From: Halieaceae bacterium
GTDB lineage: Bacteria > Pseudomonadota > Gammaproteobacteria > Pseudomonadales > Halieaceae
Assembly: GCA_028280635.1 (NCBI GenBank)
Contig: JANQLM010000045.1
Location: 1 to 64,000, forward strand
Direction: 5' to 3'
DNA: 64,000 bases
The notes under the pieces are model-generated. The model was not told the DNA's origin. It was given only the letters and a program-made list of their open reading frames with translations, and did not search any database. The position numbers and the translations under genes are program-made. Each line of letters opens with the position of its first letter. Within the stretch, counting starts at the first letter, position 1. Positions 7,662 through 34,812 of the stretch are shown here, one piece after another.

Positions 7662-7766
7662 GACTGGACCCTCCCTGGACATACAGGTGCGAAACGATAG
7701 CACGCTTTATTCCGCATAACCCAGCCCCGCTTTACCCGACACGGGCCAAACCGTAGCGGATTCGAT

Positions 7767-9650
7767 TCAGTCCTCAGTCGCTGCCAGCCGGAACGCCAGC
7801 AGAACGTTGCCAGGCATGTGGAAGTAGATGCCGTAGCCGCTGTTGACGAACAGCATCCCATCTTTGAACACAGGGCCGGCGCCGCCGCCGAAGGAGCCAC
7901 CGTGGGCGCTGGCTCCACTCAGCGAGGTGAATGGTACCGCACTGTCGAACGCCCAAATCACTTCACCGCTGTCGCGCGAATAGACGCGCAGTTGACCGTC
8001 CATGGCGCCCGCCACAACGGCACCGGGAATGGCCGTGGCCGCGGCGGAAAGACCGGGCTGACAGAATTCACGACCCCGGCAGATGTCCTCGGTCGGCGCA
8101 AACCACAGGGTCTTGCCCGTGGAGAGTTCCAGCGCATACATACCCGGGCGCCGCTCGCCGGTGCCCTCGCGGGTGCCGCCGCCACCCTTGAAGTCTGACA
8201 TGGGTACGTACACCACCTGGTCGTCGACCGCCATGCCAAAATGTACGCCGCCCTGGATGCCACCCCGGCCCAGCTTGCGCTCCCAGAGAATGGCGCCCCT
8301 GTTGTCGGGATCGAGGCCGTAGACATCCCCGGACTTTTGCCCGGCCACCAGGATGTCCTTGCCGGCGGCTGTCCTCGCGATAATCACCGCCGCACCAAAA
8401 TCCAGGTCTGGACCATTCTCTGGCGGGCAGTTGGTTTTTTCAGGATCACTCTCGCAACCCATGTTCCAGGCGTCACCCTCCGTCATCTGGGCACTCCAGA
8501 CCATGCGACCGTCGCGCATGCTGAGGGCAATCACGGCGTCGCTGGTACTGTTGGCGGGTGAGGAGTAATTGGTACCTGTGCCCATGTAGAGCAGGCCACG
8601 CGCTTCGTCGACGGCGGGCGTATTCCACACCGGGGCACCAGAGGGCGCATACTGCGGCGTTCCCACAGCATTGCGACCCACCTCGCGTGGTTCCTCGGGA
8701 ATCGAGTAGCCCTTCCACAGGCGTTTGCCGGTGCGAGCCTCGTACGCAGCGACCCCACCGCGGAAAGTACAGCAGGCATAGTGCGGGTCCGCCGCCTCAG
8801 TGACCTCAAGCGCCGACATGGGCACATACAGCACGCCGTTGTGTAACGTGGGTGCTGCGGTGAGCGTCAGGCTGGGGTGATCGTCAGGGCGATCGCGCCA
8901 AACCAGCTCACCGGTCAGGGCGTTTAGGGCGTAGGCGTTGCCTACCAGGTCACCGAAATACAGCAGCGGTGCTTTGCTACCCGTCTCTGACCAGTCTTCC
9001 ACCACAATACCGGTGCGCACTTCTGCCACGGTCTGAAAGGTCCAGTGTATGCAGCCACTGCGCTGGTCCAGCGCGTAGACGGTGCCATCCTGGCTGCCAA
9101 CAAACAGGGCGCCCCCGGCCGTGGCCGGCTGGGAACGCGCGCGGATAGCGCCGGGAAAGGCCAGCACCCAGGCCAGCTCCAGCCGCGAGACGTTGCCAGC
9201 ATCAACGCCGCCCGTCGCCAGGTCGGTGAAGCGTCGATTGGCATAGTCGCCGCCCCAGGCCCGCTGGTCCGGCGCAGCATCAAAATCAAACCATGGGTCG
9301 CCACTGTCACAGCGCGGTGCTGCCGCCGGCACCGCCTCCCCGAGGCGAGTTCCCGTGATGTACTCTGCGACCTGCCGCCGCTGCAGCGAAGACATCGCAG
9401 CGGCCTGCTGCTGCATAATGCCGCTTTCCATCGCACGCAGGATGGAACCGGCCGACATGATCTGCAGCAGGCTGAACGGCGGCGCTTTCGCTACAGTGCC
9501 ACCGTGGCAGTGGCGGCAATGCTGTTCGTAGAGTGCCCGTCCCTGGTCCGCGGCCGCGGCAGGGCAAACCCAGGCAATCACCAGCGCACACAGTGCCGCC
9601 CTTGCTGGAGCAAGGCTCAGGCCACCGTTTGAAAGAAAGAAATCCCGCAT
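7767..9650 (-). CDS. PQQ-type beta-propeller dehydrogenase with N-terminal cytochrome c domain
   Basis: A periplasmic quinohemoprotein-like protein of about 627 residues. The start at 9650 is preferred over the 63-nt longer frame because the extension would run through a terminator hairpin. After a signal sequence ending ...WVCPAAAA, a heme c motif CRHCH is seen at about residues 45-49. The rest is an eight-bladed PQQ-type propeller with repeated tryptophan-docking segments (YALDQRSGCIHWTF, YALNALTGELVW, YEARTGKRLWKG, YSRDSGEVIWAF). The cytochrome domain in front of the propeller resembles polyvinyl-alcohol dehydrogenase rather than type II alcohol dehydrogenases, where it is C-terminal. It should pass electrons from an alcohol to the respiratory chain. 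The DUF305-LVIVD gene lies 105 nt downstream. Confidence 0.85.
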   Translation of the reverse strand: MRDFFLSNGGLSLAPARAALCALVIAWVCPAAAADQGRALYEQHCRHCHGGTVAKAPPFSLLQIMSAGSILRAMESGIMQQQAAAMSSLQRRQVAEYITGTRLGEAVPAAAPRCDSGDPWFDFDAAPDQRAWGGDYANRRFTDLATGGVDAGNVSRLELAWVLAFPGAIRARSQPATAGGALFVGSQDGTVYALDQRSGCIHWTFQTVAEVRTGIVVEDWSETGSKAPLLYFGDLVGNAYALNALTGELVWRDRPDDHPSLTLTAAPTLHNGVLYVPMSALEVTEAADPHYACCTFRGGVAAYEARTGKRLWKGYSIPEEPREVGRNAVGTPQYAPSGAPVWNTPAVDEARGLLYMGTGTNYSSPANSTSDAVIALSMRDGRMVWSAQMTEGDAWNMGCESDPEKTNCPPENGPDLDFGAAVIIARTAAGKDILVAGQKSGDVYGLDPDNRGAILWERKLGRGGIQGGVHFGMAVDDQVVYVPMSDFKGGGGTREGTGERRPGMYALELSTGKTLWFAPTEDICRGREFCQPGLSAAATAIPGAVVAGAMDGQLRVYSRDSGEVIWAFDSAVPFTSLSGASAHGGSFGGGAGPVFKDGMLFVNSGYGIYFHMPGNVLLAFRLAATED

Positions 9651-9671
9651 TGTCAGCTCGCCCACCGAATA

Positions 9672-9696
9672 GAAAAAAGGCCGGCGACAGCCGGCC
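9672..9696 (-). terminator. Rho-independent terminator of the TonB receptor gene
   Basis: On the minus strand a perfect GGCCGGC/GCCGGCC stem with a TGTC loop (9679-9696) is followed by six T. It lies 68 nt beyond the stop of the TonB receptor at 9764 and just before the start of the PQQ gene. Confidence 0.85.
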
Positions 9697-9763
9697 CAAG
9701 GGGAGTAGAACACACGTCCACTATGCGCTGCCCCTCACAGGGTAATGAGCAGCGATAGAGCCA

Positions 9764-12247
9764 CTAAAAGTCGAAGTTCATCCCTGCTTCGACACCAAAG
9801 GTCGTAGGTTGCCCGTAGTAGGACATCACCCACAGGTTCGCCACCGGCAGCTCGCCGATACGGTATTCCTCATCCGTGAGGTTTCTACCAAACGCCCTCA
9901 CCCACCAATTGCCGTTGTCCGGTGTGTAGGTCACCACCGCATTGACCAGTGTGCGGTCATCGGTGACACCATCAGGCGTACCAGGCAGCGCGGTGTAGGC
10001 ATAGACAGCCTCGTCCTCGTAATTGACGTTCAGGACCCAGTCCATACTGCCGCCCAGCATGTTGTGGCCGTAGAGAAAGTCCACATTGGCTGTCCACTCC
10101 GGCGCCCGGGCGACGTCTTCATCACTGAGGTCGGTATCGATAGTGCCGTCGAAGTTGGTATCCGCGCGGAACTCGTCGAACTCCGAATCCAGCCAGCCCA
10201 GGCTGCCCTGGATGGTGAAGACGTCGTTCACTACCCACACGGCTTCCAGCTCGAGACCGCCGACGTTGATTTCCGCCGCGTTGAAGAAACGGGTCTCCTG
10301 GAACTCACTCTCGTTGATACCGTCACCGTCCCGGTCTGCCTCGATGGTGGCGAGCAACTGCTGCTGTGAGTCGTCGTAGATCACGTAGAACGCCGTGGCG
10401 TTGAGACGCAGGGTATTGTCGAACCACTCGGAGCGAATGCCCAGCTCGAAGGAATCCGCGGTTTCCGGATCGGTCGGGCGAGCCTGTTCGGGCTCAATCG
10501 GGTTGCCGCCGGTACCGGTCTGGTCGTTATAGCCCCCGCTCTTGAAGCCGCGGGAGTAGGTACCGTAGTAGTAGATATCATCGGTCGCCTGGTAGCTTGC
10601 CGTCAGGCGCCAGGTGGGCTCATCCCAGTCTTCGTCATCCTGCACCACACCGGTGGACCAGCGGTTGAAGTTGGCGGCGTTCAGGGGTTCGCCCAGATCT
10701 TCCCAGGTGAAGTTGGGGTCAAAGCCACCATCCAGCGCCTGGATGAACACCTGGTTGCGCCCGGTCCACTCTTTCTCTTCCTCGGTGTAGCGGAAACCGG
10801 CGCTGACAGTCCATTTGTCATTGAGCTCGTAGGTGCCGTCGAAGTAGATCGCCCAGGCTTCTGCATCCTGCGCATTCGAGAGTACCTGCGGGTTTTCATT
10901 GAAGAAGAACGGGTTGCCGAACGTGGCGGCGGAATCCAGCGTCATATCGACGAAGCCCAGGACCTGTGACACGGTGAATACCGTTTCATCTTCCTGGTAA
11001 AACACACCACCGACCCAGTTGAAGGGGCCATCCAGGTTGGAGGCAATGCGCGCTTCCAGTTGGGTGGTTTCACGCTCGTCCTGGCGCGTGGCGTCAAACA
11101 GGGACACCGGGCCAACCTCGCCGGTATAGGTACTCGGCAGCCAGGAATCGGTTTCGCGGTAGCCGCCGAACGCGGTCAGCGTGTAGTTGTCGCTGAAGTC
11201 CCAGTCCACCGTGATGTAATAACCGTCCACGTCAATCTCGTGGCCGCGATCACCCATCTCCAGCAGCACATCGTTACGGTTGGTGGTGCCAACCCGATCC
11301 ACGCGATCGCCCCGATCATCGCGGGTGAATCCCAGCGCATTGAAGAGGTAGGCGCCATCCGGCGGGGTGTTGTTGAATGACGGTGGAGAGTCGCCCTCGT
11401 CGCGCACGATCTCATAGGCCAGGTTGATATCCAGCCTGTCAGACGGCGACCAGCGCACCTTGAAACGGCCGGAGAAGACATCGTCACCGCCCACATCGTC
11501 ACCGTCGCCCTCACCGGTGGCACCGACCAGCGGATAGTTCACACCGAGGTCGCCCACCGGACCGTAGGACGCGCCGTTCTCGAAATAGCCGTCGGATTCC
11601 ATGTACAGGCCGGCAGCACGGAAAGCGAAGTTGTCGCCAATGGCAATATTGGCTACTGCTTCAGCCTCATAGCGGCCGAACTCAGCGGCCTGGCCGCGCA
11701 CGCTTAGCGTGGTGGCTTCCAGCTCCGGGCGGTTGGTCTTGACGTTGATCACACCGCCAGTGGTGTTCTTTCCAAACAGCGTACCCTGCGGGCCGCGCAG
11801 GATTTCCACCGACTGGATATCAAGCATTTCGATGTTGGCGGTCTGGATATGCGGGACGACGAAATCGTCGACCACCACACCGACCTGGTTTTCAAAGTAC
11901 AGGATGATGCCGTTCTGGCCGACGCCGCGGATAGCGAAGTTTGCCGAGTTGAAGCCGGGCTGCTTGCCGCTCACCACATTGGGCGCGTACATCAGTACGT
12001 CACCCAGGTCACGGGGAATGACGCGGTCGATTTCCACCTCGCTGATGGCGGTGACGGCCACCGGCGTGCGCTGGATGTCGGTTTCGGCGCGGCGGGTGGC
12101 GGTGACCAGGATTTCTTCCAGTGTGGTGGCGTCCTGGGCGACAGCAGGCAGCCCCGTGAGTGCCAGACCAGGCGCCAGACTTGCCACCAGGGACAGCTTG
12201 AAGCGCTGCCAATTGACGTAGCTGGTAGATCGTTGGAGGGCTTTCAT
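9764..12247 (-). CDS. TonB-dependent outer-membrane receptor 1
   Basis: An 827-residue outer-membrane receptor. It has an unusually long N-terminal region before a signal peptide ending AVAQ, the TonB-box region LEEILVTATRR, a plug domain with the RGPQGTLFGKNTTGGVINV signature, and a barrel ending in the terminal aromatic motif MNFDF. AGGGAG lies eight bases before the ATG. The type is common in lipid- and aromatic-degrading marine gammaproteobacteria, where receptors take up hydrophobic carbon sources. Two palindromes (12286-12300 and 12312-12332) sit in its promoter region. It lies just downstream of the eight-gene catabolic run and has its own terminator, which suggests separate but co-ordinated transcription. 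Confidence 0.95.
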   Translation of the reverse strand: MKALQRSTSYVNWQRFKLSLVASLAPGLALTGLPAVAQDATTLEEILVTATRRAETDIQRTPVAVTAISEVEIDRVIPRDLGDVLMYAPNVVSGKQPGFNSANFAIRGVGQNGIILYFENQVGVVVDDFVVPHIQTANIEMLDIQSVEILRGPQGTLFGKNTTGGVINVKTNRPELEATTLSVRGQAAEFGRYEAEAVANIAIGDNFAFRAAGLYMESDGYFENGASYGPVGDLGVNYPLVGATGEGDGDDVGGDDVFSGRFKVRWSPSDRLDINLAYEIVRDEGDSPPSFNNTPPDGAYLFNALGFTRDDRGDRVDRVGTTNRNDVLLEMGDRGHEIDVDGYYITVDWDFSDNYTLTAFGGYRETDSWLPSTYTGEVGPVSLFDATRQDERETTQLEARIASNLDGPFNWVGGVFYQEDETVFTVSQVLGFVDMTLDSAATFGNPFFFNENPQVLSNAQDAEAWAIYFDGTYELNDKWTVSAGFRYTEEEKEWTGRNQVFIQALDGGFDPNFTWEDLGEPLNAANFNRWSTGVVQDDEDWDEPTWRLTASYQATDDIYYYGTYSRGFKSGGYNDQTGTGGNPIEPEQARPTDPETADSFELGIRSEWFDNTLRLNATAFYVIYDDSQQQLLATIEADRDGDGINESEFQETRFFNAAEINVGGLELEAVWVVNDVFTIQGSLGWLDSEFDEFRADTNFDGTIDTDLSDEDVARAPEWTANVDFLYGHNMLGGSMDWVLNVNYEDEAVYAYTALPGTPDGVTDDRTLVNAVVTYTPDNGNWWVRAFGRNLTDEEYRIGELPVANLWVMSYYGQPTTFGVEAGMNFDF

Positions 12248-12366: not shown

Positions 12367-13719
12367 CTAGTCTGCGAGTCGGCGTTCCAGTTCCACATGG
12401 AAATGACGCAGCCGTTGCTCCTGTTCACCCCAAAGCTGGCCCTTGAATCCGCGCGAGCGCATGCCCTGCTGTACCACGGGCAGGAAAGCGGCATCCTGGC
12501 TCAGCACCAGGCCCAGATGGGCGTCCTCTTCGAGGGTGTAGTGTTCAGTGGCCGGACGGGTCTTGCCGGTTACGTCGGTACCCTCGGGCAAACCCATCCA
12601 GGCTGGCGGGCAATAGTCGGGGTCTTCCACCGGGAACAACAGCGTCATGGTCTCGTAGTAGAAACGTTCGGGGTCGGTGGGATGCGGCAGGAAGCGCATC
12701 AGGAAAGCCGCCTCCGGGTGACAACCGATCTGTACGTTCGGGAAGATGCCGGTAGCCCAGCTATCCGAGAGTTGACCGTCCACCAGCTTGGAGTAATCCA
12801 GGCCCAGTCGTTCAGCTCTCTGGCGCTTGGCCAGTTGGATAGCCCGCCGTACGTCGGCTGCCGTGCCATCGAAGTTCTCGGGGTCGATCCCCGCGTCCTG
12901 CAGCATTATCTGCAGGCCTTCGTTTACCGTTTGCTGGTCATGGGCCCGCGGGCTAGGCTGCCCCAGCGGCACGATCATGCGGCTGGCCCCGTTGGGATAC
13001 AGGTCGTACTGAACGTTGAGGTCACCCATCACCCCGCGGGTTTCCGGATGTACGGCGTGCAGGTGGTAGCTTTCGTAGAATGCTTCCACCCCGACTTTCC
13101 AGTTCGCACCCCACTCGCTGCGGACGTGGCGCACCACCTTCATACGATCGATGTTGTAGGCCTCCAGATAACCCTCTGGCAGGCCGACCATCTCCTTGAG
13201 CGGCGGCGGCTGGTCCGCCATGCAGATAAAGATAACGCCGGCGTGAACCTCACAGGCCAGCGCGGTCAGGCCGGGGCGGTGCGCGACCACTTCATCCTGG
13301 AAGGTTTCCTCGTCGGTGATGCGGCGCAGTTCACCGTTGTTGTGGAAGCTCCAGGAGTGGAAGGGGCAGACGAAGACCTTCTTGTTGCCGCGCTCCTCGT
13401 ACAGCAGGCGGGCGCCGCGGTGGCTGCAGACATTGTAAAAGGCACGAATACCCTCGTCAGTGAGGGTAACAATGATGGACTCGTGGCCGATCTCGAACAG
13501 GAAGTAGTCACCCACCTCGTTGAGGTCGGAGGCCACGCCCGCGATCAGCCAGCTTTGGGTCCACAGCTTGTCCCATTCCCGCTGCATGTACTCGCGGCTG
13601 AAATAACCCTCCTTGCCGTAGCGCTCCGCCCCGTTGTCGATGTGAGGCTGCTTGGCTTCCAGCGACCCCAGCGGGGCGTCCGGGTTGATGATGGCTACCG
13701 GTATGGTGTCAGCGCTCAT
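12367..13719 (-). CDS. Rieske aromatic-ring-hydroxylating oxygenase, alpha subunit
   Basis: A 450-residue Rieske non-heme iron oxygenase. The [2Fe-2S] ligands are visible as CSH (Cys98, His100) and CPFH (Cys118, His121). The mononuclear iron site lies around EAFYESYHLHAVH (His219 and His224). It should hydroxylate or dihydroxylate a ring or activated carbon in the cytoplasm, taking electrons from a reductase not encoded in the window. Its ATG overlaps the stop of the DUF35 gene by 4 nt. It is the last gene of the eight-gene run, so it is probably made together with the acyl-CoA enzymes. No small (beta) subunit is nearby. Confidence 0.93.
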   Translation of the reverse strand: MSADTIPVAIINPDAPLGSLEAKQPHIDNGAERYGKEGYFSREYMQREWDKLWTQSWLIAGVASDLNEVGDYFLFEIGHESIIVTLTDEGIRAFYNVCSHRGARLLYEERGNKKVFVCPFHSWSFHNNGELRRITDEETFQDEVVAHRPGLTALACEVHAGVIFICMADQPPPLKEMVGLPEGYLEAYNIDRMKVVRHVRSEWGANWKVGVEAFYESYHLHAVHPETRGVMGDLNVQYDLYPNGASRMIVPLGQPSPRAHDQQTVNEGLQIMLQDAGIDPENFDGTAADVRRAIQLAKRQRAERLGLDYSKLVDGQLSDSWATGIFPNVQIGCHPEAAFLMRFLPHPTDPERFYYETMTLLFPVEDPDYCPPAWMGLPEGTDVTGKTRPATEHYTLEEDAHLGLVLSQDAAFLPVVQQGMRSRGFKGQLWGEQEQRLRHFHVELERRLAD

Positions 13720-14138
13720 GGCGATGCTTCCTCCGTGGCAATACGAAAAACAGGCATGGAAATCTCTTCAGACCAGGCGGCAAAATCCACCCTCACAGCC
13801 TGCCCGATGTGCAGACTGTCTGGCTCGGCATCTACCACGCTGCTCATCATGCGCGGGCCTTCGTCCAGGTCGACCAGGGCGATCATCGTGGGGGCCGGGT
13901 AAGCGTCGGTCATGGGCCGCCGCACCACGGTAAAACTGGCGATTCGACCACGGCCGCTGACCCGCCGCCAGCTCAGGCTGTCGTGCCCACAGTGGCTGCA
14001 GAGAATGCGCGGGTAGAACTGGTATTTACCGCAGGCGTCGCACTGCTGCAGACGCAGTTCCCGCTTCCGACAGCCGGTCCAGTAGGGCTCCGTGAGTGCC
14101 GTCACTGGGGGCAGGATACGCACGCTGGTGTCGCTCAT
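13716..14138 (-). CDS. DUF35 zinc-ribbon/OB-fold protein
   Basis: A 140-residue protein with a rubredoxin-like zinc ribbon (Cys33, Cys36, Cys47, Cys50) followed by an OB-fold that includes GRGRIASFTVVRR and IALVDLDEGPRMMS. Stand-alone DUF35 proteins, and the DUF35 tail of ChsH2, form complexes with SCP2-thiolase-like proteins and bring acyl-CoA to them. The thiolase-like gene lies one nucleotide upstream, and the Rieske gene overlaps downstream. The role as partner of the 14140-15312 product is therefore well supported by family knowledge and context. Confidence 0.88.
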   Translation of the reverse strand: MSDTSVRILPPVTALTEPYWTGCRKRELRLQQCDACGKYQFYPRILCSHCGHDSLSWRRVSGRGRIASFTVVRRPMTDAYPAPTMIALVDLDEGPRMMSSVVDAEPDSLHIGQAVRVDFAAWSEEISMPVFRIATEEASP

Positions 14139-14139
14139 T

Positions 14140-15312
14140 TCAGGCGGCCTCCCGCCCGAGAATGATCGAGGTATGGCTGGACATAATCCCGCCCTGGCCG
14201 TGCACCAGGCCGACCTCGGCTCCGGGTAACTGTCGCTCCCCCGCCTGCCCGCGCAGCTGCCAGACCGATTCGGTCAGGGCAAACATCGCGCCCGGGTTGC
14301 CGGGGTGGCAGTGAGACAACATGCCGCCGTGGGTATTGACCGGCAGGCTGCCGCCAGGACGGGTCGCGCCGGTCTCCAGAAAGGCACCGCCCTCCCCCTT
14401 GGCGCAGAAACCCAGGTCTTCCAACTCCACCAGAACGGTAGGCGTGAAGCAGTCATAGAGCTGGGCGAAGTCCATATCCGCGGGGCCCAGCCCCGCCATC
14501 TCATAAGCGAGCCGGCCGGAATCCAGCGCTGCCGACGTGGTCAGGCTGGACGCCTGGCTGATGTGTTCGTGGCTGTGACCTTCGCCGACACCCAGCAGGT
14601 AAACCGGCGCCTGGGCAAAGTCCTTTGCTCGCTCCATGGACGTCACCACGACCGCAGAGCCGCCGTCCGACACCAGCGAACAGTCGAGAACATGCAGGGG
14701 GTCCGCCACCAGCGGAGAAGCCAGTACGTCGTCCACGCTAATCAGTTCCTGCTTCTGCGCCGAGGGATTGCGCGCCGCATGGGCGCGGCAGGAAACGGCG
14801 ACTTCGGCAAACTGCTCCTGGGTGGTGCCGTATTCGGCCATATGGGCCTGGGCGATCAGCGCATAGTAGGCGGGAACCGTCAGACCGTAGGGTTGCTCAA
14901 ACTGCGGGTGGCCGGTGGATGACTGCACTCGTCTTGCCTGATCCCGGGTCATGCTGCTGCGCAGGCTGTCCGCCATGCTGATAACAATCACGTCCGCCAT
15001 GCCAGTGGCAATCGCCGAAGCCGCATGGTGCAACACAGTAAAAGTGGTGCCGCCGCCGGTATTCACGCTGAAACAGTAGCGCGGAAAAATCTGCAGGTAC
15101 TCCGCTACGGCTTCCGCATGATAGAGAATCGGCTCAGCGAAGGCGTTGCAGGTAATGAGGCCATCCACCTGCGACCTGTCGATGCCGGCATCCGCCATGG
15201 CGCCCAGCGCCGCTGCCACGCACAGCTCGGTGGGGGTTTTCCCGGGCACCACGCCCACGTTGGTGTCGAAGGCTCCGACGATAGCGAGCTTGCCGCGCAG
15301 GGAATTGTCCAT
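14140..15312 (-). CDS. SCP2-type thiolase family protein, probable Ltp2-like aldolase
   Basis: A 390-residue thiolase-fold protein of the sterol-carrier-protein-X/lipid-transfer type. Where true thiolases have the acylated cysteine (NxxCxTG-like), this protein reads VNTGGGTTFT, so the nucleophile appears to be Gly. The later NTHGGMLSHCHPG and HGQGGIMSSH segments are of thiolase type, and QLYDCFTPT offers a conserved tyrosine. This fits Ltp2-type retro-aldolases, which cleave a beta-hydroxyacyl-CoA side chain together with a DUF35 partner, better than a thiolytic enzyme. The DUF35 gene follows immediately and the two hot-dog genes precede it. The substrate is inferred only as a branched or ring-attached acyl-CoA. 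Confidence 0.85.
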   Translation of the reverse strand: MDNSLRGKLAIVGAFDTNVGVVPGKTPTELCVAAALGAMADAGIDRSQVDGLITCNAFAEPILYHAEAVAEYLQIFPRYCFSVNTGGGTTFTVLHHAASAIATGMADVIVISMADSLRSSMTRDQARRVQSSTGHPQFEQPYGLTVPAYYALIAQAHMAEYGTTQEQFAEVAVSCRAHAARNPSAQKQELISVDDVLASPLVADPLHVLDCSLVSDGGSAVVVTSMERAKDFAQAPVYLLGVGEGHSHEHISQASSLTTSAALDSGRLAYEMAGLGPADMDFAQLYDCFTPTVLVELEDLGFCAKGEGGAFLETGATRPGGSLPVNTHGGMLSHCHPGNPGAMFALTESVWQLRGQAGERQLPGAEVGLVHGQGGIMSSHTSIILGREAA

Positions 15313-15317
15313 GGTGT

Positions 15318-15740
15318 CTAACGCGCCTCCAGCCTGGCGGTGGCCACACCCGGTGCCACTACGTCGCCGGCTTCGTTGCGTATGAAGACGTCGATCACCA
15401 GCTCACCGCTATCGGGCTGGTAGCCGCTTACCGTACCCCCGGCTACCAGGGTTTCGCCGATATAGCTGGCCGCCCGGTTGGAGTACTCGATGCCGGTGAG
15501 CACCCCGCTGTCGCCAAGCCACTCTTCGACACACTGGTTCATCCAGTCACCCAGCAACGGGCCGGCAATCACCAGCCCCGGGTAGCCCTCTACCTCTTTG
15601 GCATAGGGCTCGTCGAAGTGGATACGATGGCCATTCCAGAGCGCGGCGTTGTAGAGCATTAGCTGGACATTGCCGCAGTTGTGTTCGCGCCGCGGGAGCT
15701 CGGTACCCACCTGCACACTGGCGGGGTCAACACCGCTCAT
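15318..15740 (-). CDS. MaoC-like hot-dog hydratase, catalytic half
   Basis: A 140-residue hot-dog protein. The segment NGHRIHFDEPYAKEVEGYPG, followed by LVIAGPL, is that of the C-terminal, catalytic half of HTD2/mesaconyl-CoA hydratase-type enzymes, with the Asp and His pair in HRIHFD. It overlaps the N-terminal-type hot-dog gene by 4 nt, so the two probably make a heteromeric enoyl-CoA hydratase, as ChsH1 and ChsH2 do in steroid degraders. It would hydrate the alpha,beta-unsaturated acyl-CoA before retro-aldol cleavage by the next gene product. Confidence 0.85.
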   Translation of the reverse strand: MSGVDPASVQVGTELPRREHNCGNVQLMLYNAALWNGHRIHFDEPYAKEVEGYPGLVIAGPLLGDWMNQCVEEWLGDSGVLTGIEYSNRAASYIGETLVAGGTVSGYQPDSGELVIDVFIRNEAGDVVAPGVATARLEAR

Positions 15741-16192
15741 CGAAGAATCCTCGTGGTTTTTTCGCGAATCACCAGTTCACCGTGATCGTCAACGATATCC
15801 ATGACCACCTCGTAGAAGATCAGCGGGCCGGAGCGACCGGCTTTCTCATAGATATCAGTCAGGGTGCGGGTCGCCGTGAGCCAGTCACCTGGGTGGACCG
15901 GCTGGTGATACTCGATCTTCAAACCACCCGCCATGGCCTTTTCCAGCGGAAACTTCGGCAGCAGCCTGTCGATGCTCACCCCATCAGGCGAGAGCTGGTC
16001 GAGCTCCACCACGTCCCAGAACAGGGCCACATGAAACATGGGCGGCGCCTGGTCCCCGTCCAGGTACTTGCGTTGCCGGTTCCCGGTAGCGATGGCGTAC
16101 TTGCGGATATCGCGGCGGGTCACCAGTTCCCGGTGCGGCTCGCTCTGCTTGCCGATATTCGCCAGCAGCTCTTCGCTGAGCAGACCTGTCAT
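15737..16192 (-). CDS. FAS1-like MaoC N-terminal-type hot-dog protein
   Basis: A 151-residue protein of the MaoC N-terminal (FAS1-like dehydratase) type, with the RRDIRKYAIATG segment, the long insert naming the dimer face, and KIEYHQPVHPGDWLTATRTL. It usually forms the non-catalytic or structural half of a two-hot-dog hydratase. Its stop overlaps the next gene by 4 nt, and its start overlaps the ligase stop by 4 nt. A paired role with the 15318-15740 product is inferred from family knowledge and coupling. Confidence 0.85.
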   Translation of the reverse strand: MTGLLSEELLANIGKQSEPHRELVTRRDIRKYAIATGNRQRKYLDGDQAPPMFHVALFWDVVELDQLSPDGVSIDRLLPKFPLEKAMAGGLKIEYHQPVHPGDWLTATRTLTDIYEKAGRSGPLIFYEVVMDIVDDHGELVIREKTTRILR

Positions 16193-17745
16193 AACTTTTT
16201 GCCTTCCTGCTGCCAGTAGGGGTCGCGTAATTCTCGCTTGAGTATCTTGCCGGTGGGGGCCTTGGGCAGGCTGTCCACAAAGTCCACGGATTTGGGTTTC
16301 TGGTAAGAAGCCAGGTGCTGGGCTGCGGCTTCGATAATGTCTTCGGCGCTGGCGGTCTCACCGGGCTTGAGCACCACCACGGCCTTGACGGCTTCACCCC
16401 ACTCATCGTCCGGCACACCGAACACGGCGGATTCCAGTACCGCGGGGTGCTGGTGTATGGCAGCCTCCACCTGGGTGCTGTAGATGTTCTCGCCGCCGGA
16501 AATGATCATGTCCTTGGCGCGATCGACGATGAACAGGTAACCATCGGCGTCCCAGGTGGCAATGTCGCCGGTCCACATCCAGCCATCGCGAATTGTCTCC
16601 GCGGTCAGGTCCGGGCGGCGCCAGTAGCCGACCATGTTGGCCTCCGAGCGGACGATGATTTCACCCGGTGTGCTGCCGTCCCGGGGTACCTCCTTGCCCC
16701 CCGCGTCCACCAGCCTGATGCTGGTTACGAAGCCTTCACGGCCGCAGCTACTGAGCCGCTCGGGGTGGTTTCCGGCGAGGGCTTCGATGTGGTCTTCCTG
16801 GGACAGGAAGCTCATCGTCATGCCTTCCGTCTGGCCGTAGCCCTGGATGATGGTGCAGGGGAATTTCGACAGGGCGTCGGCTACCACTTTCTTCGGCATG
16901 GGGCCGCCGCCATACTGGATATTGCGCAGGCTTGACAGGTCATAGCTGTCAAAGCCATCCACGGCCATCATCCAGTTGAGCATGGTGGTAATTCCAAGGA
17001 AGGCCGAGACCCGCTCCTCCTGAATCACTTCCAGCGCCAGCCTGGCCTCGAAATTGATCAACACGAGCGGGCAGCCGTGCGCCATGTAGTTCATGGCCAG
17101 GGCCACGGGGATGTGGAACATCTGGCCGGTGAGCATGTAGACGTCGGTGGGCACGATGCGCTCCGCCACCGTCTGGTTGAGCATGCCCATGTAGATGGAC
17201 TTGTGGGTGTGCAACGCACCCTTGGATTCACCGGTGGTGCCGCCGGTATACAGGATCAGCACCGGGTCGTCGTCGCCGACATCCGCGGAGGCGATGGGCT
17301 CTGCGTCACTGGCGGCAGAGACCAGGGCATCGTAGGAACCGTCAGAGCCCTCACCAAAACACAGCCAGTGTTTTGCGGCCACGGTCTGTTTCAGATCCTT
17401 GGCGACCTCCGCGTACTCGGCCGAGGCGATGACCACACTGGGCTCACCGTCATTGAGAATGCGCGCCATCTCAGCCAGGCCCAGGCGCCAGTTGACCGGC
17501 TGGGCAATCAAACCGCAGCGGGCGCAGGCATAGTAGATCTCCATGTACTCGATACAGTTCTTCGAGAGAATGCCTACCCGATCTCCCTTCTCCAAACCGA
17601 GCTTGTCCCGGAGCCCGTTGGCCAGGCGCCGGACTCGCGATTCCAACTCGCCATAGCTCATGCGGCGCTCGTTGGGGATGTCGACAAGGGCTTCACGGCC
17701 CGGGTCGAGGCGCGCAGTCTTGGCGGGTATCAGTCCGAGATTCAT
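16189..17745 (-). CDS. Acyl-CoA ligase (AMP-binding)
   Basis: A 518-residue adenylate-forming ligase. It has the P-loop LYTGGTTGESKGALHTH, the adenine-binding YGQTEG segment, WMWTGDIATWDADGYLFIVDRAKD around the hinge, and the C-terminal lysine region PKAPTGKILKRELR. It should activate the free acid of the pathway substrate to its CoA ester. It sits in the middle of the eight-gene run, overlapping the hot-dog gene and 7 nt from the SnoaL gene. The full length and intact motifs indicate an active enzyme; chain length or ring preference cannot be read. Confidence 0.92.
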   Translation of the reverse strand: MNLGLIPAKTARLDPGREALVDIPNERRMSYGELESRVRRLANGLRDKLGLEKGDRVGILSKNCIEYMEIYYACARCGLIAQPVNWRLGLAEMARILNDGEPSVVIASAEYAEVAKDLKQTVAAKHWLCFGEGSDGSYDALVSAASDAEPIASADVGDDDPVLILYTGGTTGESKGALHTHKSIYMGMLNQTVAERIVPTDVYMLTGQMFHIPVALAMNYMAHGCPLVLINFEARLALEVIQEERVSAFLGITTMLNWMMAVDGFDSYDLSSLRNIQYGGGPMPKKVVADALSKFPCTIIQGYGQTEGMTMSFLSQEDHIEALAGNHPERLSSCGREGFVTSIRLVDAGGKEVPRDGSTPGEIIVRSEANMVGYWRRPDLTAETIRDGWMWTGDIATWDADGYLFIVDRAKDMIISGGENIYSTQVEAAIHQHPAVLESAVFGVPDDEWGEAVKAVVVLKPGETASAEDIIEAAAQHLASYQKPKSVDFVDSLPKAPTGKILKRELRDPYWQQEGKKL

Positions 17746-17752
17746 GGGGCGC

Positions 17753-18190
17753 TCAGTAGGCTTTGTCCAGTTCCAGGTAGCGGTCGAGGATTTCCCAGTT
17801 GCCGTCTACCTTGGCCACGGTGTCGCGGTATACCCCGGCCGATATCAACTGAATCTCGCCGTTCTCAGTCGCCATCAGCGTCAGGTTGGACACCACCACC
17901 GGGTTACCGTCGTTGTCGCCGTCGAAGTAGATATTGGTTACCAGGTGGCGGCGCTGGTCGGTCTGTTCGGCCATGGAGCCGGTCATCAGCTCCATGATGC
18001 CGCTGCGGTCCACGAAGGGGCCAACCAGGTCGCCCCCGGCGATGCGCATGCTGAAACGCGCGTTTTCGGCAAAGCTTGCCGCCAGCATGTCCGTGTCGCG
18101 TACGTCGAGGCCGTAGGCCGAGCGCGCCAGCAATTCGTGAATAGCCAGTTTGTCTTCCAGGCCCAGCTTACCTTCAGGGGATTGCGTCAT
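17753..18190 (-). CDS. SnoaL-like (NTF2-fold) protein
   Basis: A 145-residue cytoplasmic protein of the SnoaL/scytalone-dehydratase-like type, starting LEDKLAIHELLARSAYGLDVRDTDMLAASFAENARF. Members are isomerases, dehydratases or epoxide hydrolases, and many stay uncharacterised beside SDR genes. It overlaps the SDR start by 4 nt (ATGA). Similar proteins at 29754, 31225 and 34198 lie in the same cluster, each near an SDR, which suggests related steps on a ring or ketone. No specific reaction is claimed. Confidence 0.85.
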   Translation of the reverse strand: MTQSPEGKLGLEDKLAIHELLARSAYGLDVRDTDMLAASFAENARFSMRIAGGDLVGPFVDRSGIMELMTGSMAEQTDQRRHLVTNIYFDGDNDGNPVVVSNLTLMATENGEIQLISAGVYRDTVAKVDGNWEILDRYLELDKAY

Positions 18191-19002
18191 GCCTGCGCCT
18201 CCATTCCCAGTACGTCCAGGGTGCCGCGCCAGGCCAGCGAGCCGCCGTCAATGGTCCACACCGCGCCGTTAACGAACTGGGACTCGGGACTGGCCAGGAA
18301 ACAGACCAGTTCCGCCACATCAACGGGTTGCCCCATGCGCGGGATCAGGTGGGTCTGGGTCATGGTGTTGAGCATGGCCCTGGGGTCCGGGGCGGCCTCG
18401 AGGAACTTATCCACCATCTCGGTATGGATCGAACCCGGGCAGTAACAGTTGACGCGGATGCCATCCGCCGCCAGATCTACCGCCAGCATTTTCGTCAACT
18501 GCATGACCGCGCCCTTGCTGGCGCCGTAAGCCTGGCACTGCGGGTAGCCCGACAGGGAACTGGTGGAGCCGGCGTTGATAATGGAGGCCTGGTCGCTGCT
18601 TCGCAGGTAAGGCAATGCATACTTGGCGCAGAGCCAGACGCCGATCAGGTTGACGCCCAGCACTTTCTCGAAGCTGTCCCGGCTCATGCTCTCCAGGCCA
18701 AGCTCCCCAGAGATCATGCTCTCGTGAATGCCGGCGTTGTTGTGCAACACATCAATGCCGCCAAAGGCACTGTCAGCGGCGGCCATCAGCGCCTCTACCT
18801 GGGCTTCATCGGTGACATCACAGTGCTGGTAGATGGCCGTGCCGCCGGCTGCGAGAATCTCATCCACCACGGCCTGGCCGTTAGCGTCATTGGTGTCGGA
18901 GACCATCACGCTGGCGCCGCGGCTGGCAGCCAGCTTTGCGGTGCCGGCGCCAATACCGGCACCGGAGCCGGTGATTACGAAACGCATCCCGTCGATTGTC
19001 AT
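18187..19002 (-). CDS. SDR-family oxidoreductase
   Basis: A 271-residue classical short-chain dehydrogenase. The cofactor loop is TGSGAGIGAG, the NNAG motif follows, and the active site is YGASKG with an upstream serine in GSTSSLSG. An acidic residue after the second beta strand (SDTND) suggests NAD(H). It is the first gene of the eight-gene run and is divergent from tetR at 19106, with operator copy 2 between them. A hydroxy-to-keto step on a pathway alcohol is the likely job; substrate unknown. Confidence 0.92.
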   Translation of the reverse strand: MTIDGMRFVITGSGAGIGAGTAKLAASRGASVMVSDTNDANGQAVVDEILAAGGTAIYQHCDVTDEAQVEALMAAADSAFGGIDVLHNNAGIHESMISGELGLESMSRDSFEKVLGVNLIGVWLCAKYALPYLRSSDQASIINAGSTSSLSGYPQCQAYGASKGAVMQLTKMLAVDLAADGIRVNCYCPGSIHTEMVDKFLEAAPDPRAMLNTMTQTHLIPRMGQPVDVAELVCFLASPESQFVNGAVWTIDGGSLAWRGTLDVLGMEAQA

Positions 19003-19105: not shown

Positions 19106-19762
19106 GTGTCGATGCTAAGGTCTCGCGCCATGCCCAGAACCCAGAGCAGCAACACCGCCAGCAAGCGAGCCAGCAAGCGAGAAGGTCGCCGTGATTCACG
19201 GGGTGACCAGCGTCGCCGCCGAATCTTCAAGTCCCTGCACGACTGCATTATCAACAAGGGCTACGTAAAGACATCCCTGGCGGATATCGCTGAAGGCGCC
19301 GACATGTCGGCCAGCCATCTGCTCTACTACTTCAAGGGCAAGGAGGCGATTCTCGAACAGTATTTCGATTCGGTGTCTGTGCGCTTCCTGGAGCGCATTG
19401 CCGAATTTGGTGCGGAATCCCCTGAACGACAGATTCAGCTAATTGCAGACTTCTGGTTCAAAGGCGAAGCCGGCACCCGCATGGAAATCGGCTTCATGCT
19501 GGAATGCTTCGGGGCGGCGGTGCACGACGAGGTACTGCAGGGAACCAAGGCGGAGTTCGACCTCAACTGCAAGCAGTTGCTCAGCCGCATCTTCGAAGCC
19601 TCGGCCTCGGATTTCATGGAAAGTCCCAAAGACTCCGCCGAAATCGCCTACGCGATGATGATCGGCCTGCGCTCAGCGGTGTACTTCGATGAAGACATCG
19701 ACCTCGAGGGCGCCCACCGCCTGTTCGTAAACACCCTCAACCGCATGTGCGGCATCGCTTAA
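19106..19762 (+). CDS. TetR family regulator 1
   Basis: A TetR regulator of up to 218 residues. The N-terminal helix-turn-helix is clear (SLADIAEGADMSASHLLYYFKGKEAILEQYF) after a basic arm rich in Arg and Ser. The ligand domain is of unknown specificity. The frame opens at GTG 19106; ATG at 19112 or 19130 is equally possible. It is divergent from the catabolic operon, with the TTGAAT-N3-ATTCAA palindrome between them, and a second copy precedes TonB receptor 1. It probably represses both units until a CoA-thioester or other pathway intermediate binds; this is inference. Confidence 0.9.
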   Translation: MSMLRSRAMPRTQSSNTASKRASKREGRRDSRGDQRRRRIFKSLHDCIINKGYVKTSLADIAEGADMSASHLLYYFKGKEAILEQYFDSVSVRFLERIAEFGAESPERQIQLIADFWFKGEAGTRMEIGFMLECFGAAVHDEVLQGTKAEFDLNCKQLLSRIFEASASDFMESPKDSAEIAYAMMIGLRSAVYFDEDIDLEGAHRLFVNTLNRMCGIA

Positions 19763-19768
19763 CTGCCG

Positions 19769-20770
19769 TCAGCGCAGGCGCGGCAATACCTTCTCGGCAA
19801 TATACTTAAGCCGTCGATTGCCCGACTCCACCGACTCACCGGGGAACTGCGCCCAGAAGTGGATATCGCTGATCATCGGGTAGTCAGAGATCAACTGGCT
19901 GAGCTTGTCCACCGCCATCTCCGCGTCCCATAGTTCATACAGGCCGTTTTCAATGGCCGTCGGTGCATCTTCAAACAGCGGCGTCTCACCCGGCGGACCG
20001 AAGGCGCCCCACTTGATGTACTCGTTGATCTGGTAGAGCACGTGGTCACCGACCCGGGCCGCTTCCGCTTCCGGGTCTTCGGAAATAATGGCCCAACAGC
20101 CCAGCACGGCTTTGCCCTCCTCCACCGATTTGCCCTGGCTCACCAGGGCTTCGCTGTAGATATCGAGGCCGATGCCGCCGGTGCACAGGAAGCCGTCCGC
20201 CACCCGGGCGGCGCGCTCGATGGCAGGCTGCACCATGCCGCCCAGCAGGATATCGGGCGTGTGCACGGGAGTCGGTGTCACCCGCAGGTCGCCAACCTGG
20301 AAGCGCTTGCCGCTGAAATTGACTGCGTCGCCGGACCAGCTGCGCCGGATGATCTCTATCCCCTCTTCCACCAGCGAGGGCCGGTGCTTGAGGCTGCGCT
20401 GGAACTGGTCGAACTCGAGCTGGCGATAGCCGATACCCACGCCGAGGTCAAAGCGGCCACCGGTGGTCAGTGACAGGGTGGCGGCATCTTCGGCCATGCG
20501 CACCGGGTCGTGCAGCGGCAACAGCATCAGGTTGGTGCCAATGCGCATCTGGCGGGTGCGCGCACCGATGGCCGCGGACAACACCAGCGGCGACGGTGTG
20601 TAGCCGTCATCACAGAAGTGGTGCTCGGTCAGCCACACCGAGTTGAAGCCCAGCGCCTCGGCCTCGGCGATCTGCTGTAGCCGTTCCGCGTAGAAAGCCT
20701 CGAAATCCTGCCGCCAGGGCACGGGATTGCGGAAGTCGTACCAGAGACCGTAATTGACGTTATTGCTCAT
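19769..20770 (-). CDS. LLM class flavin-dependent oxidoreductase
   Basis: A 333-residue luciferase-like flavoprotein with WLTEHHFCDDGYTPSP, followed by the LLPLHDPVRMAEDAATL and DLGVGIGYR segments typical of the bacterial-luciferase superfamily. Members use reduced FMN or F420 for monooxygenation or hydride transfer, often Baeyer-Villiger type II oxidation. It ends the second minus-strand run, 20 nt behind an alpha/beta hydrolase that could open a lactone product. It converges with tetR 1, six nucleotides apart. Confidence 0.88.
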   Translation of the reverse strand: MSNNVNYGLWYDFRNPVPWRQDFEAFYAERLQQIAEAEALGFNSVWLTEHHFCDDGYTPSPLVLSAAIGARTRQMRIGTNLMLLPLHDPVRMAEDAATLSLTTGGRFDLGVGIGYRQLEFDQFQRSLKHRPSLVEEGIEIIRRSWSGDAVNFSGKRFQVGDLRVTPTPVHTPDILLGGMVQPAIERAARVADGFLCTGGIGLDIYSEALVSQGKSVEEGKAVLGCWAIISEDPEAEAARVGDHVLYQINEYIKWGAFGPPGETPLFEDAPTAIENGLYELWDAEMAVDKLSQLISDYPMISDIHFWAQFPGESVESGNRRLKYIAEKVLPRLR

Positions 20771-20790: not shown

Positions 20791-21594
20791 CTACAGGCTG
20801 CCGAGAAAGGCCTGCAGTTCTTCCAGGTAGGCCTGCTGCTCTTCGATGAACGGCGCGTGACCAACACCTTCGAACTCAACCACCCTGGCGTTGGGGTTGT
20901 TCTCGCCCACCCAGCGGCAGATCGGCGGTGCGACAAAGCCGTCCTCACTGCCGACAAAAGAGAGGATGGGCATCTGCAGGGCCGCCAGTTGCACCCGCTG
21001 GTCCAACTGCGCGAGCTCACCCAGGGACTGTCCCGCCAATGGTGAAGCCTGCAGGAAGATCTGCCAGAACCAGTGCTCGATATCGGGACTGACTTCTTTC
21101 ACGCATACAACCTGTGACAGGCCCTTCAGGAAGTTCACGCGATCGGCAGCCAGCGCAGCGAGCGTACCCGCCATGTCCTCATCGGTGCCGCCGTGGGGGA
21201 AATCCGGTTTTTGGGTATAGACCGGTGTGGCACCGCCAGTCAGCACCAGTCCCTTGCAGACGTCGCCGAGTTGGTCCGCCGCTTCCACGACCACGGCGCC
21301 GCCCAGCGACCAACCGTTCAGCACCACGGAGGACAGCCCCAGTTCCCGCACCAGGGCCACCACATCGCCGGCGATGGCCTTGATGCTGAGATCGGCGAAG
21401 TCCTTGTCCGACTCGCCGCAGCCGCGGTGATCAACCAACACCACCCGATGGCCGGCGGCTACCAGGGCCGGCGTGACATGATCCCAGGTACGCCCGCTCA
21501 TACCCCAGCCGTGCACCAGCAATACGGTGCTGTCGCCGTCACCATGGCTCTCGTAGTAAACCTGCTTGTTATCTTCTCTGCTCAGGTAGCTCAT
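20791..21594 (-). CDS. Alpha/beta hydrolase
   Basis: A 267-residue alpha/beta hydrolase starting at 21594 (MSYLSREDNKQVYYESHGDG), with the oxyanion segment LLVHGWGMSGRTWDH, a nucleophile elbow LNGWSLGGAVV (Ser), a catalytic Asp in SFVGSEDGFV and the His in EGVGHAPF. The start codon overlaps the tetR 2 stop by 4 nt, so it is translationally coupled. The longer open frame to 21690 would overlap the regulator heavily and is not needed. In this context it may hydrolyse an ester or lactone made by a Baeyer-Villiger step. Confidence 0.88.
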   Translation of the reverse strand: MSYLSREDNKQVYYESHGDGDSTVLLVHGWGMSGRTWDHVTPALVAAGHRVVLVDHRGCGESDKDFADLSIKAIAGDVVALVRELGLSSVVLNGWSLGGAVVVEAADQLGDVCKGLVLTGGATPVYTQKPDFPHGGTDEDMAGTLAALAADRVNFLKGLSQVVCVKEVSPDIEHWFWQIFLQASPLAGQSLGELAQLDQRVQLAALQMPILSFVGSEDGFVAPPICRWVGENNPNARVVEFEGVGHAPFIEEQQAYLEELQAFLGSL

Positions 21595-22241
21595 CGGCCT
21601 TGTTTCCTCTTGCTGAGTATGCGTTCGACATTCGCCTCGTAGTCGACGAACAGGGCGTCGAGGTCCAGGGCATCGGCATCCACCAGCCACTGGTAAACAG
21701 TGCCGAAAATAAACGCGCAGTACTGAACGGCGAACTGCTCGGCGTCGACGTCGGGATCAATTTCACCGGTTTCGATAGCGTGAGTCACCCAGCGGGCCGC
21801 GTCCTCGCGGTAGACGCGATGGTGTTCCGCCAGCCTGGAGCGAATCTCGGACTCATGGCCCAGCGACTCATACCAGAGAATGTACATGGCGCGCATGGAC
21901 TCGGACTCCAGCTTGAGAAAATCCCGCAGTGCATCGGCCGCGGCCTTGATGCCAGCGATACCTTCCTTGTCACCGATGTAGCTGTTGAGGTGGTCCTTCC
22001 AGCGCTCATCGAACCATGCGAACAGCTCCAGCATCAGGCCGTCCTTGGAGCCGAAACGGTAGTTAGCGAGGCCGCGGCTGTAGCCGGCCATTTCGCCGAT
22101 GTCCTTGAGCGTAGTTTTCTGGGTGCCCCGGTCGATGATCAGCCGGATGGCCGCATCGAACATTCGCTGGTCGGAAAGCGCCGTGCGCTCTGCCTGGGTG
22201 CGGCGTCCGTTCTTGCCGGCTTTTGCACTTGAATCTGCCAT
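21591..22241 (-). CDS. TetR family regulator 2
   Basis: A 216-residue TetR protein with the helix-turn-helix TTLKDIGEMAGYSRGLANYRFGSKDGLMLELF after a Lys/Arg-rich arm. Unlike regulator 1 it lies inside an operon, between the acyl-CoA ligase and the coupled hydrolase. It could autoregulate the operon from the 25-nt element at 25728-25752 and act in trans at its copy at 34788-34812; this is inferred from gene and site layout. Confidence 0.88.
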   Translation of the reverse strand: MADSSAKAGKNGRRTQAERTALSDQRMFDAAIRLIIDRGTQKTTLKDIGEMAGYSRGLANYRFGSKDGLMLELFAWFDERWKDHLNSYIGDKEGIAGIKAAADALRDFLKLESESMRAMYILWYESLGHESEIRSRLAEHHRVYREDAARWVTHAIETGEIDPDVDAEQFAVQYCAFIFGTVYQWLVDADALDLDALFVDYEANVERILSKRKQGR

Positions 22242-23900: not shown

Positions 23901-23901
23901 C

Positions 23902-24918: not shown

Positions 24919-24942
24919 TGCCACCTCCCGGGCCCGCCCATC

Positions 24943-25674: not shown

Positions 25675-25723
25675 GACTCTGCGTGGGTCTCTCTGGGTCT
25701 TGGAAGCTGATGGGTATCGCAAT

Positions 25724-28926: not shown

Positions 28927-29003
28927 GCAAGGTCATGACGACGCGATAACAGCACGGCGCCGCAGGGCGCCGTTTGTTTCTCTGGCTTCGGAGGATTCCC
29001 AGC

Positions 29004-29750: not shown

Positions 29751-29753
29751 GGC

Positions 29754-30200: not shown

Positions 30201-30214
30201 GCGCTGCTCCCGCC

Positions 30215-31054: not shown

Positions 31055-31224
31055 ACTGTAACTCCTGCATGAAAGTGTGGAAGGGTTTTGTCTGGTCGAC
31101 CGAGCCCGGCATGCCTGCATTGCGGACAAGCGGCGCGTGTGCACCGAACCCGGGAACTGCGGTGGCAGCCCGTTCGTCGCCAGTCAGGCCGCATGGCGAC
31201 TGCTGACAGCGGCCCGGATTGAAT

Positions 31225-31800: not shown

Positions 31801-31830
31801 GCTGCGCTCTCCCCGGTCGCGAATCCCCAA

Positions 31831-34131: not shown

Positions 34132-34197
34132 GTGCTGTCTCCTGGGGAGTAATAGCTATTATTTTCAGGCGTGTGTGTATGGGACTTGGTCATCGGC

Positions 34198-34680: not shown

Positions 34681-34787
34681 GTCGCTCTATCTCGCCTTTA
34701 GTCACCGCTGCCCTGCCGGCCCGGGATGGGGACGGGTTCCCGGTCAAATGCGCGGTGCTCTTATATGGTCTATACTGCGAACGAAAA

Positions 34788-34812
34788 TGCTTGTTTGTGT
34801 CTAGCAAGTTTA
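34788..34812. promoter_or_regulatory. 25-nt element, copy 2
   Basis: Identical over 25 nt to 25728-25752. It lies in the divergent gap between a SnoaL gene and an SDR gene, the same kind of position as copy 1. The inverted repeat is shorter here, since only TGCT and AGCA match. A shared regulator is inferred. Confidence 0.6.

Follow-up and report, generated by a model that had tools for sequence, protein, structure and literature searches.

Four adjoining genes in a Halieaceae bacterium (contig JANQLM010000045.1, assembly GCA_028280635.1) encode two hot-dog proteins, hd1 and hd2, a thiolase-like protein, Thl, and a protein of the DUF35 family, and together they constitute a real, conserved and new variant of the hydratase-retro-aldolase module. 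They lie within a 64,000-nt stretch of the contig, referred to below as the window. The module works like the Sal/Shy and Ltp2/ChsH systems, yet fails defining features of each. We consider it probable that hd1-hd2-Thl-DUF35 is a hydratase-retro-aldolase unit serving a late step in the breakdown of alicyclic, probably terpenoid, compounds; its reaction, step order and substrate class are what we infer from gene order, residues, predicted fold, clade and synteny. Beta-branched acyl-CoAs are barred from normal beta-oxidation, and just a few bacterial solutions to this problem are known.

The genes of the module, in their order of transcription, are as follows.

15737..16192, minus strand: hd1, a non-catalytic hot-dog half like the N-terminal half of itaconyl/mesaconyl-CoA hydratase (PF13452, FAS1_DH_region, 8.7e-19)
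15318..15740, minus strand: hd2, the catalytic hot-dog half, with the dyad Asn36/His41 in NGHRIH (match to 8khg, then HadB)
14140..15312, minus strand: Thl, a predicted retro-aldolase of SCP2-thiolase fold (Gly87, Tyr286-Asp287-Cys288-Phe289, His336; model pLDDT 93.9)
13716..14138, minus strand: DUF35, free-standing, 140 aa, with a C4 zinc ribbon C33-x2-C36-x10-C47-x2-C50 (PF01796, OB_ChsH2_C, and PF12172, zf-ChsH2)

Along the minus strand in its 5' to 3' direction, the genes run SDR, SnoaL, ligase, hd1, hd2, Thl, DUF35, Rieske oxygenase, TonB receptor and pyrroloquinoline quinone (PQQ) dehydrogenase. An initial annotation of the window had placed the hot-dog pair, the thiolase-like gene and DUF35 in this order, and the list of open reading frames and the Pfam matches bear out both order and coordinates. 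It had also described the genes as overlapping, which is true of hd1 and hd2 (4 bp) but not of hd2 and Thl, separated by 5 nt, or of Thl and DUF35, separated by 1 nt. Further 4-bp overlaps join ligase to hd1, SnoaL to SDR and DUF35 to Rieske.

The residues of Thl set it apart from thiolases. The window protein was aligned with MAFFT to 88 orthologue rows (some genomes being entered twice under different locus ids), four PDB chains, seven same-genome paralogues and 21 remoter relatives. Gly87 aligns with the nucleophilic Cys in thiolase 7yvy, and Tyr286 with a His in that enzyme. Together with Asp287, Cys288, Phe289 and His336, both are invariant in all 89 orthologue rows, the window included, and the initial reading of Gly in place of the nucleophilic Cys thus withstands careful alignment. 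The Gly87 column holds Cys in two of the seven same-genome paralogues (L004 and L005), Gly in three and a gap in two.

A second-site Cys does exist in Thl, within YDC288F, and it occupies the Cys position used by CtSal, the bile-acid aldolase of Comamonas testosteroni. Where thiolases have their Cys, CtSal likewise carries Gly. It relies on a Tyr302/Cys304 dyad in a YDCY motif, and activity is lost in Y302F and C304A/S/H (PMC12329534). The dyad aligns with Tyr286/Cys288 of Thl. Ltp2 has a YDHF motif and Tyr344 (PMC12329534). His336 of Thl corresponds to Gln352 in CtSal and to Tyr344 in Ltp2, so the residue set of Thl equals neither. Cys288 is not general among near relatives, since the 21-row group (about 39-48% identity) has Ala in 12 rows, Ser in 6 and Cys in 3. 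Pfam recognizes Thiolase_C_1 and Thiolase_N in Thl, which is predicted from its residues to be a retro-aldolase.

An AlphaFold2 model of Thl built from 46 sequences reached a pLDDT of 93.9, and one from nine close orthologues (pLDDT 35.1) was discarded. The best Foldseek matches of the retained model are 4u4e, CtSal, Ltp2 and TbSLP, and its VIA-align Z scores are 55.0 for TbSLP, 54.5 for CtSal, 53.8 for both 6esq and 4u4e, and 52.0 for Ltp2. These leading rows are tied, with classical thiolases at about 39 and below, so that the structural check suggested in the initial annotation places the fold nearest TbSLP, CtSal, 6esq and 4u4e and remote from classical thiolases. By sequence, the closest of the characterized or solved proteins is 4u4e (46-49% identity), followed by Ltp2 (38%), CtSal (36%) and IpfD of an ibuprofen degradation cluster (34-35%). 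In a 49-row IQ-TREE phylogeny the Thl orthologues group together (100/100), apart from the clade that holds 4u4e, and Thl falls in no fatty-acid thiolase clade, the placement that would have spoken for an ordinary thiolase. Ltp2 (6ok1) clusters outside the window clade, with the same-genome paralogue L002 (100/99) and with L037 (100/98), under a long-branch warning. CtSal (9myr), the single Sal sequence in the tree, has a branch length of 2.67, and because of such long branches its position and those of two similarly long-branched paralogues are unsure. As judged from these sequences, the Thl clade is distinct from Ltp2.

The two hot-dog proteins resemble a different hydratase from that first proposed. 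hd1 matches residues 9-139 of itaconyl-CoA hydratase 8khg (6e-13) and hd2 matches residues 172-211 (1.8e-10, with HadB next), the pair thus covering the N- and C-terminal halves of a single chain. Asn36 and His41 of hd2 are at least 97% conserved in 58 rows, and their spacing is that of Asn226/His231 in mesaconyl-CoA hydratase MeMeaC, proposed to activate water (PMC10164722). In hd1 the N/D-x4-H dyad was not found where expected. A Pfam search of hd2 returned no match, although the HadB model does recognize it, and in a search by sequence alone no ChsH1 or ChsH2 chain matches either half at E<=0.01. The likeness to MeaC and 8khg lies in the two matching halves and the Asn-x4-His dyad; these enzymes differ in being single fused chains and in the type of lyase they work with, whereas hd1 and hd2 are two genes. 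HD1 would act as scaffold and HD2 would supply the catalytic Asn36/His41 of a split mesaconyl/itaconyl-CoA-hydratase-type enzyme. Citramalyl-CoA is a tertiary alcohol. It is produced by itaconyl-CoA hydratase and then split by a lyase (PMC12290011), and by analogy the same logic may apply to hd1-hd2-Thl.

The C4 ribbon was read in the window DUF35 and in 79 of 79 relatives, and its four Cys are near-invariant. The ribbon of the Shy DUF35 is C3H1 (PMC12329534). Shy also has its DUF35 fused to one MaoC domain and ChsH2 carries one within its chain, whereas the window DUF35 is a separate gene, not MaoC-fused, accompanied by two hot-dog genes. Its free-standing state, which had been singled out as an oddity, is not one in itself, for IpfE of the ibuprofen cluster is free-standing as well.

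Taken as a unit, HD1-HD2 would hydrate an alpha,beta-unsaturated acyl-CoA to a 3-hydroxyacyl-CoA, which the Cys-less Thl would then cleave. Tyr286 would accept the proton of the beta-hydroxyl as the C-C bond breaks, and Cys288, perhaps with His336, would protonate the enolate, giving acetyl- or propionyl-CoA and a ketone or aldehyde. DUF35 would be a structural partner seated on the aldolase dimer and may hold the hydratase. The chain would be removed at a branched beta carbon, where therefore no 3-ketoacyl-CoA is possible.

The module is widely distributed. A GTDB contig scan gave 180 relatives, and the best 80 loci were kept; many are short, and several names of metagenome-assembled genomes (MAGs) among them are doubtful. 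They span Halieaceae, other Gammaproteobacteria, Sphingomonadales, Emcibacter, Bacillaceae, Candidatus Binatia and others, and the carriers include the cultured HTCC2148 and Pseudohalioglobus sediminis. The aldolase-DUF35 core is also present in Candidatus Binatota MAGs, and a search of viral_contigs gave no relative. Five orthologues (L100, L129, L133, L068 and L096) come from MAG contigs assigned to Klebsiella pneumoniae, Flavobacteriaceae or Gallionella, records that are likely mislabelled or misbinned. DUF35 adjoins the thiolase-like gene in 79 of the 80 loci. Of the 73 loci whose flanks are long enough to judge, 49 have the genes in exactly the order hd1-hd2-Thl-DUF35. They come from both Pseudomonadota and Bacillota, and the arrangement is thus not chance. 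Within 10 kb of the module lie hd1 in 54 of the 80 loci, hd2 in 57, SnoaL in 33, ligase (at least 65%) in 32, Rieske (at least 50%) in 27, PQQ dehydrogenase and alpha/beta-hydrolase in 21 each, and a luciferase-like (LLM) oxidoreductase in 18.

Closer to home, Thl orthologues at 70-100% occur in the window's genome and eight others among 244 genomes of the order, the next match being at 47%. Six of the eight carry a syntenic island of about 20-30 kb, shared with other Halieaceae and relatives; five of these have the Rieske gene (G106, G077, G047, G068 and G241) and one lacks it (G003), and the remaining two genomes have Thl-DUF35 alone. The joining of the module to a Rieske oxygenase, an SDR, a SnoaL protein and a ligase, reported in the initial annotation, is confirmed and kept across genera, and so is not accidental.

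How the module relates to known systems can now be stated more exactly. CtSal-CtShy (9MYR) shares with Thl the Gly, the Tyr and Cys of YDC, the DUF35 partner and the fold, and departs from it in overall identity and at the His336 position. Ltp2-ChsH1-ChsH2 (6ok1) resembles the module in its retro-aldolase fold, its Gly, its C4 DUF35 and its two hot-dog units; it departs in having YDHF and Tyr344 for YDCF and His336, and in its separate clade. The uncharacterized 4u4e, from Sphaerobacter thermophilus, is the closest solved sequence and has the equivalents of Gly87 and His336, but Ser for Cys288 (YDSF). The general idea of a hydratase, a Cys-less retro-aldolase and a DUF35 protein acting in the manner of the steroid side-chain machinery is supported, whereas the proposed match to ChsH1-ChsH2-Ltp2 itself is not supported, as the dyad is Tyr/Cys rather than Tyr/His/Tyr, the halves match itaconyl-CoA hydratase in the sequence search, and Ltp2 lies elsewhere in the tree.

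CtSal and Ltp2 are the proven enzymes that come nearest to Thl in residues and fold. It has therefore to be weighed whether the module is a Sal/Shy or Ltp2/ChsH orthologue that acts on the side chains of steroids or bile acids in a steroid-degrading marine bacterium. KshA_C scores above cut-off in all nine orthologue-carrying genomes, strongly in eight. The HsaD cut-off is reached in none of the 244 genomes, with a model that is possibly too actinobacterial here, and in most genomes the two steroid markers neither bind nor exclude the island. G068 alone argues against the steroid reading, as it carries the island with a best KshA_C score of just 24.8 bits and no HsaD match at 1e-40. With the Thl clade apart from Ltp2, an apparently different hydratase type and a C4 ribbon where Shy has C3H1, we regard this reading as unlikely. 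The window's genome does encode a KshA_C-type Rieske protein elsewhere (G000:C30:25058-25642, 1.4e-53), and the host may also attack steroids.

A different precedent is the ipfABDEF ibuprofen cluster, which joins a Rieske oxygenase, an SCP2-like retro-aldolase, DUF35 and a ligase (PMC9195938). Located on pIBU218, it combines the same kinds of gene as the island, and the assembly type therefore has a precedent. The initial annotation did not recognize the assembly from a known pathway; ipfABDEF is a known analogue, though not an orthologous one, its proteins being just 26-37% identical. On an ipf-like scheme, the Rieske enzyme would hydroxylate the beta (ring ipso) carbon of the acyl-CoA, the SCP2-like protein would make the retro-aldol cut, and the hot-dog proteins would serve another step. 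The weak match of SnoaL to Ring_hydroxyl_B would suit it, yet no clear Rieske beta subunit was found in the comparison with ipfABDEF, which has no hot-dog gene and an aromatic substrate. The matches are poor (IpfA 26% over 216 aa, IpfB 28% over 75 aa, IpfD 34%), IpfD has YDAF without the Cys, and a Rieske gene accompanies the module in 27 of the 80 loci, fewer than hd1 (54) or hd2 (57), which leaves the scheme distinctly unlikely. An ipf-like assembly of a different kind does occur elsewhere in the window's genome (L053, G000:C1:1214-7298), with SDR, SnoaL-like, DUF35-like, a Cys-keeping Thl paralogue (GCATG), Rieske, ligase and zinc-type dehydrogenases, named by eye except for the Thl, Rieske, ligase and SDR matches. 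Very improbable is a Thl that forms C-C bonds, as a PhlACB-like acyltransferase or Claisen enzyme working with DUF35. PhlC and MucABC share the fold, and DUF35 is also a partner of PhlABC (PMC12329534), but the acyl-accepting site has no Cys, and the neighbouring ligases, receptors and oxygenases speak of catabolism. The NCBIfam subfamily models label Thl an acetyl-CoA acetyltransferase or a thiolase, all those listed scoring below cut-off, and a misannotated, ordinary 3-ketoacyl-CoA thiolase operon deserves almost no credence; it is refuted on sequence by Gly87 in 89 of 89 rows and by Tyr286 where 7yvy has His.

The genes around the hydratase-retro-aldolase unit give some indication of the pathway that it may serve.

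7767..9713, minus strand: PQQ dehydrogenase with N-terminal cytochrome c motif CRHCH (PF01011 and Cytochrome_CBB3)
9764..12247, minus strand: TonB-dependent receptor (named by eye from the translation; conserved beside Rieske)
12367..13719, minus strand: Rieske oxygenase alpha subunit (PF00848 and PF00355)
16189..17745, minus strand: acyl-CoA ligase LIG (PF00501, 4.8e-79)
17753..18190, minus strand: SnoaL_4 NTF2-like protein, probable dehydratase/isomerase (PF13577, 1.7e-17; weak PF00866, Ring_hydroxyl_B)
18187..19002, minus strand: SDR oxidoreductase (PF13561)
19106..19762, plus strand: TetR1 regulator, divergent (PF00440)
19769..20770, minus strand: LLM oxidoreductase (PF00296)
20791..21594, minus strand: alpha/beta hydrolase, possible lactonase/esterase (PF00561, GWSLG elbow; listed open reading frame opens at 21690)
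21591..22241, minus strand: TetR2 regulator (named by eye from the translation; conserved in place)
22275..23975, minus strand: second acyl-CoA ligase LIG2 (PF00501)
23902..24924, minus strand: APH-fold kinase, ACAD11-kinase-domain-like (PF01636; ACAD11 8v3v/8v3u, 114 and 110 bits)
24943..25722, minus strand: SDR2 oxidoreductase (named by eye from the translation; conserved in place)
25884..27176, plus strand: ACAD11-like acyl-CoA dehydrogenase (ACAD11 2wbi/8v3u, 242 bits)
27298..28926, plus strand: type I Baeyer-Villiger monooxygenase (BVMO), cyclohexanone-monooxygenase (CHMO)-like (CHMO 5m0z, 458 bits; fingerprint FKGPLFHSCRWP)

The Rieske motif reads C98-x-H100 ... C118-x2-H121, and H219, H224 and D409 are near-invariant in 27 rows. 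Plasmid pDC03 encodes a protein 46% identical to the Rieske enzyme, but a connection with herbicide N-dealkylase was set aside, the plasmid gene being unnamed and unconfirmed. D29, H82 and R137 of SnoaL are near-invariant in 34 rows, LIG shares 76-78% identity with its counterparts in the six relatives that have the syntenic island, and TetR1 (at least 45%) is found no more than 10 kb from the module in 30 of the 80 loci. CHMO is the best match of the BVMO, which has the type I fingerprint, taken here to be FxGxxxHxxxW[PD]. Across genera the dehydrogenase (ACAD) is 87-89% and the BVMO 76-80% identical; the two are adjacent in G106, G241 and G068 and about 12 kb apart in G047. A BVMO of the same cluster is near the module in 9 of the 80 relatives, Oceanobacillus rekensis among them. 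There (L089, 5169-15545) Thl-DUF35 occurs with an aldehyde dehydrogenase, two ligases, a zinc alcohol dehydrogenase, the BVMO and an esterase, the hot-dog genes not being beside Thl-DUF35. The kinase and ACAD genes are close to the domains of ACAD11, though separate in the island, and presumably resemble the bacterial LvaA/LvaC pair. For the ACAD, the unnamed 4hr3 (249 bits) ranks above ACAD11 and the following named ACAD scores 143. ACAD11 with ACAD10 admits 4-hydroxyacyl-CoAs to beta-oxidation (PMC12440821, PMC11342911).

At the edges of the island, the gene adjoining that for PQQ dehydrogenase (5235-7703) encodes an 822-aa protein in which a DUF305 domain is followed by a longer C-terminal portion that no Pfam model matches. 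Further catabolic genes stand at 28974-35661, among them three more for SnoaL_4 proteins, three for SDRs and another for a TonB receptor, and some of this stretch is retained alongside the island in G106 and G047. Literature searches on the enzyme combinations of the island or on Halieaceae found no published description of it in the portions of the sources available.

The simplest route that may be proposed from these genes would begin with ring hydroxylation by the Rieske enzyme, followed by formation of a ketone by the PQQ dehydrogenase or SDR. The BVMO would open the ring by way of a lactone, which the alpha/beta-hydrolase would convert to a hydroxy acid, and a ligase would form the CoA ester. 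The ACAD11-like kinase/dehydrogenase pair would then remove a 4-hydroxy group, before the hydratase-retro-aldolase cut at the branched beta carbon. p-Menthane terpenoids would fit as substrate, as would other alkyl-substituted alicyclics.

Several observations weigh against this account of the module and island. Exact-order hd1/hd2 are absent in 24 of the 73 eligible loci, which means that the hydratase does not always accompany the aldolase. In G077 and G003, a search of the 20 kb past the ACAD gene gave no BVMO. The module itself showed neither a ferredoxin nor a reductase that could serve the Rieske enzyme. The acid/base roles proposed for Thl are tentative in their detail, because His336 differs from both Gln352 of CtSal and Tyr344 of Ltp2, and activity and substrate are deduced from sequence.

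A link to the rare redox cofactor F420 is possible. The host has an F420 operon on another contig (L167, 7297-13066, G000:C26) with CofGH, CofD, CofE and NpdG, all above curated cut-offs, and on this genomic evidence the host makes F420. In 8 of the 80 loci, which show three arrangements, a cofD gene occurs no more than 10 kb from the module, where 0.46 such loci would be expected by chance (P(>=8) 2.3e-8 with loci treated as independent; P 0.011 if the three arrangements only are counted). Curated models, applied to three of the eight, identify cofD and cofE with an F420-dependent glucose-6-phosphate dehydrogenase in L114, cofC, cofD and cofE in L120, and cofD in L099. In L114 (8058-15450, a Lysobacterales MAG) an amidohydrolase-like gene comes after the module, and then cofD, cofE and the dehydrogenase gene. 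CofD is present in 74 of the 244 genomes of the order as against all nine orthologue carriers (Fisher 1.5e-5, kinship uncorrected); within the window's family it is found in four of six genomes without a 70% orthologue, and kinship explains part of the association. Among 49 named genomes searched, drawn from 50 of the 80 loci, CofD occurs in 36; all of these are among the 41 genomes from outside Bacillaceae, and none of the 8 Bacillaceae has it, and the bare module therefore does not need F420. The best NCBIfam model for the LLM protein is TIGR03619 (F420), below cut-off, and its best PDB matches are FMN-type by name, then F420. That the island is a dedicated F420-linked alicyclic terpenoid pathway, in which the split hydratase and a His336-type aldolase of a third class cut tertiary beta-hydroxyacyl-CoAs and F420 serves the LLM enzyme, is a possible but still doubtful extension of the hydratase-retro-aldolase reading.

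As a widespread module acting outside steroid metabolism, the hydratase-retro-aldolase unit would give bacteria a general means of dealing with beta-branched acyl-CoAs, and it would be a source of new C-C lyases. Why Proteobacteria synthesize F420 was listed as unanswered in a 2021 review (PMC8498797). The F420 link makes this question testable and, if true, the island would provide the first catabolic reason for marine Proteobacteria to make the cofactor.

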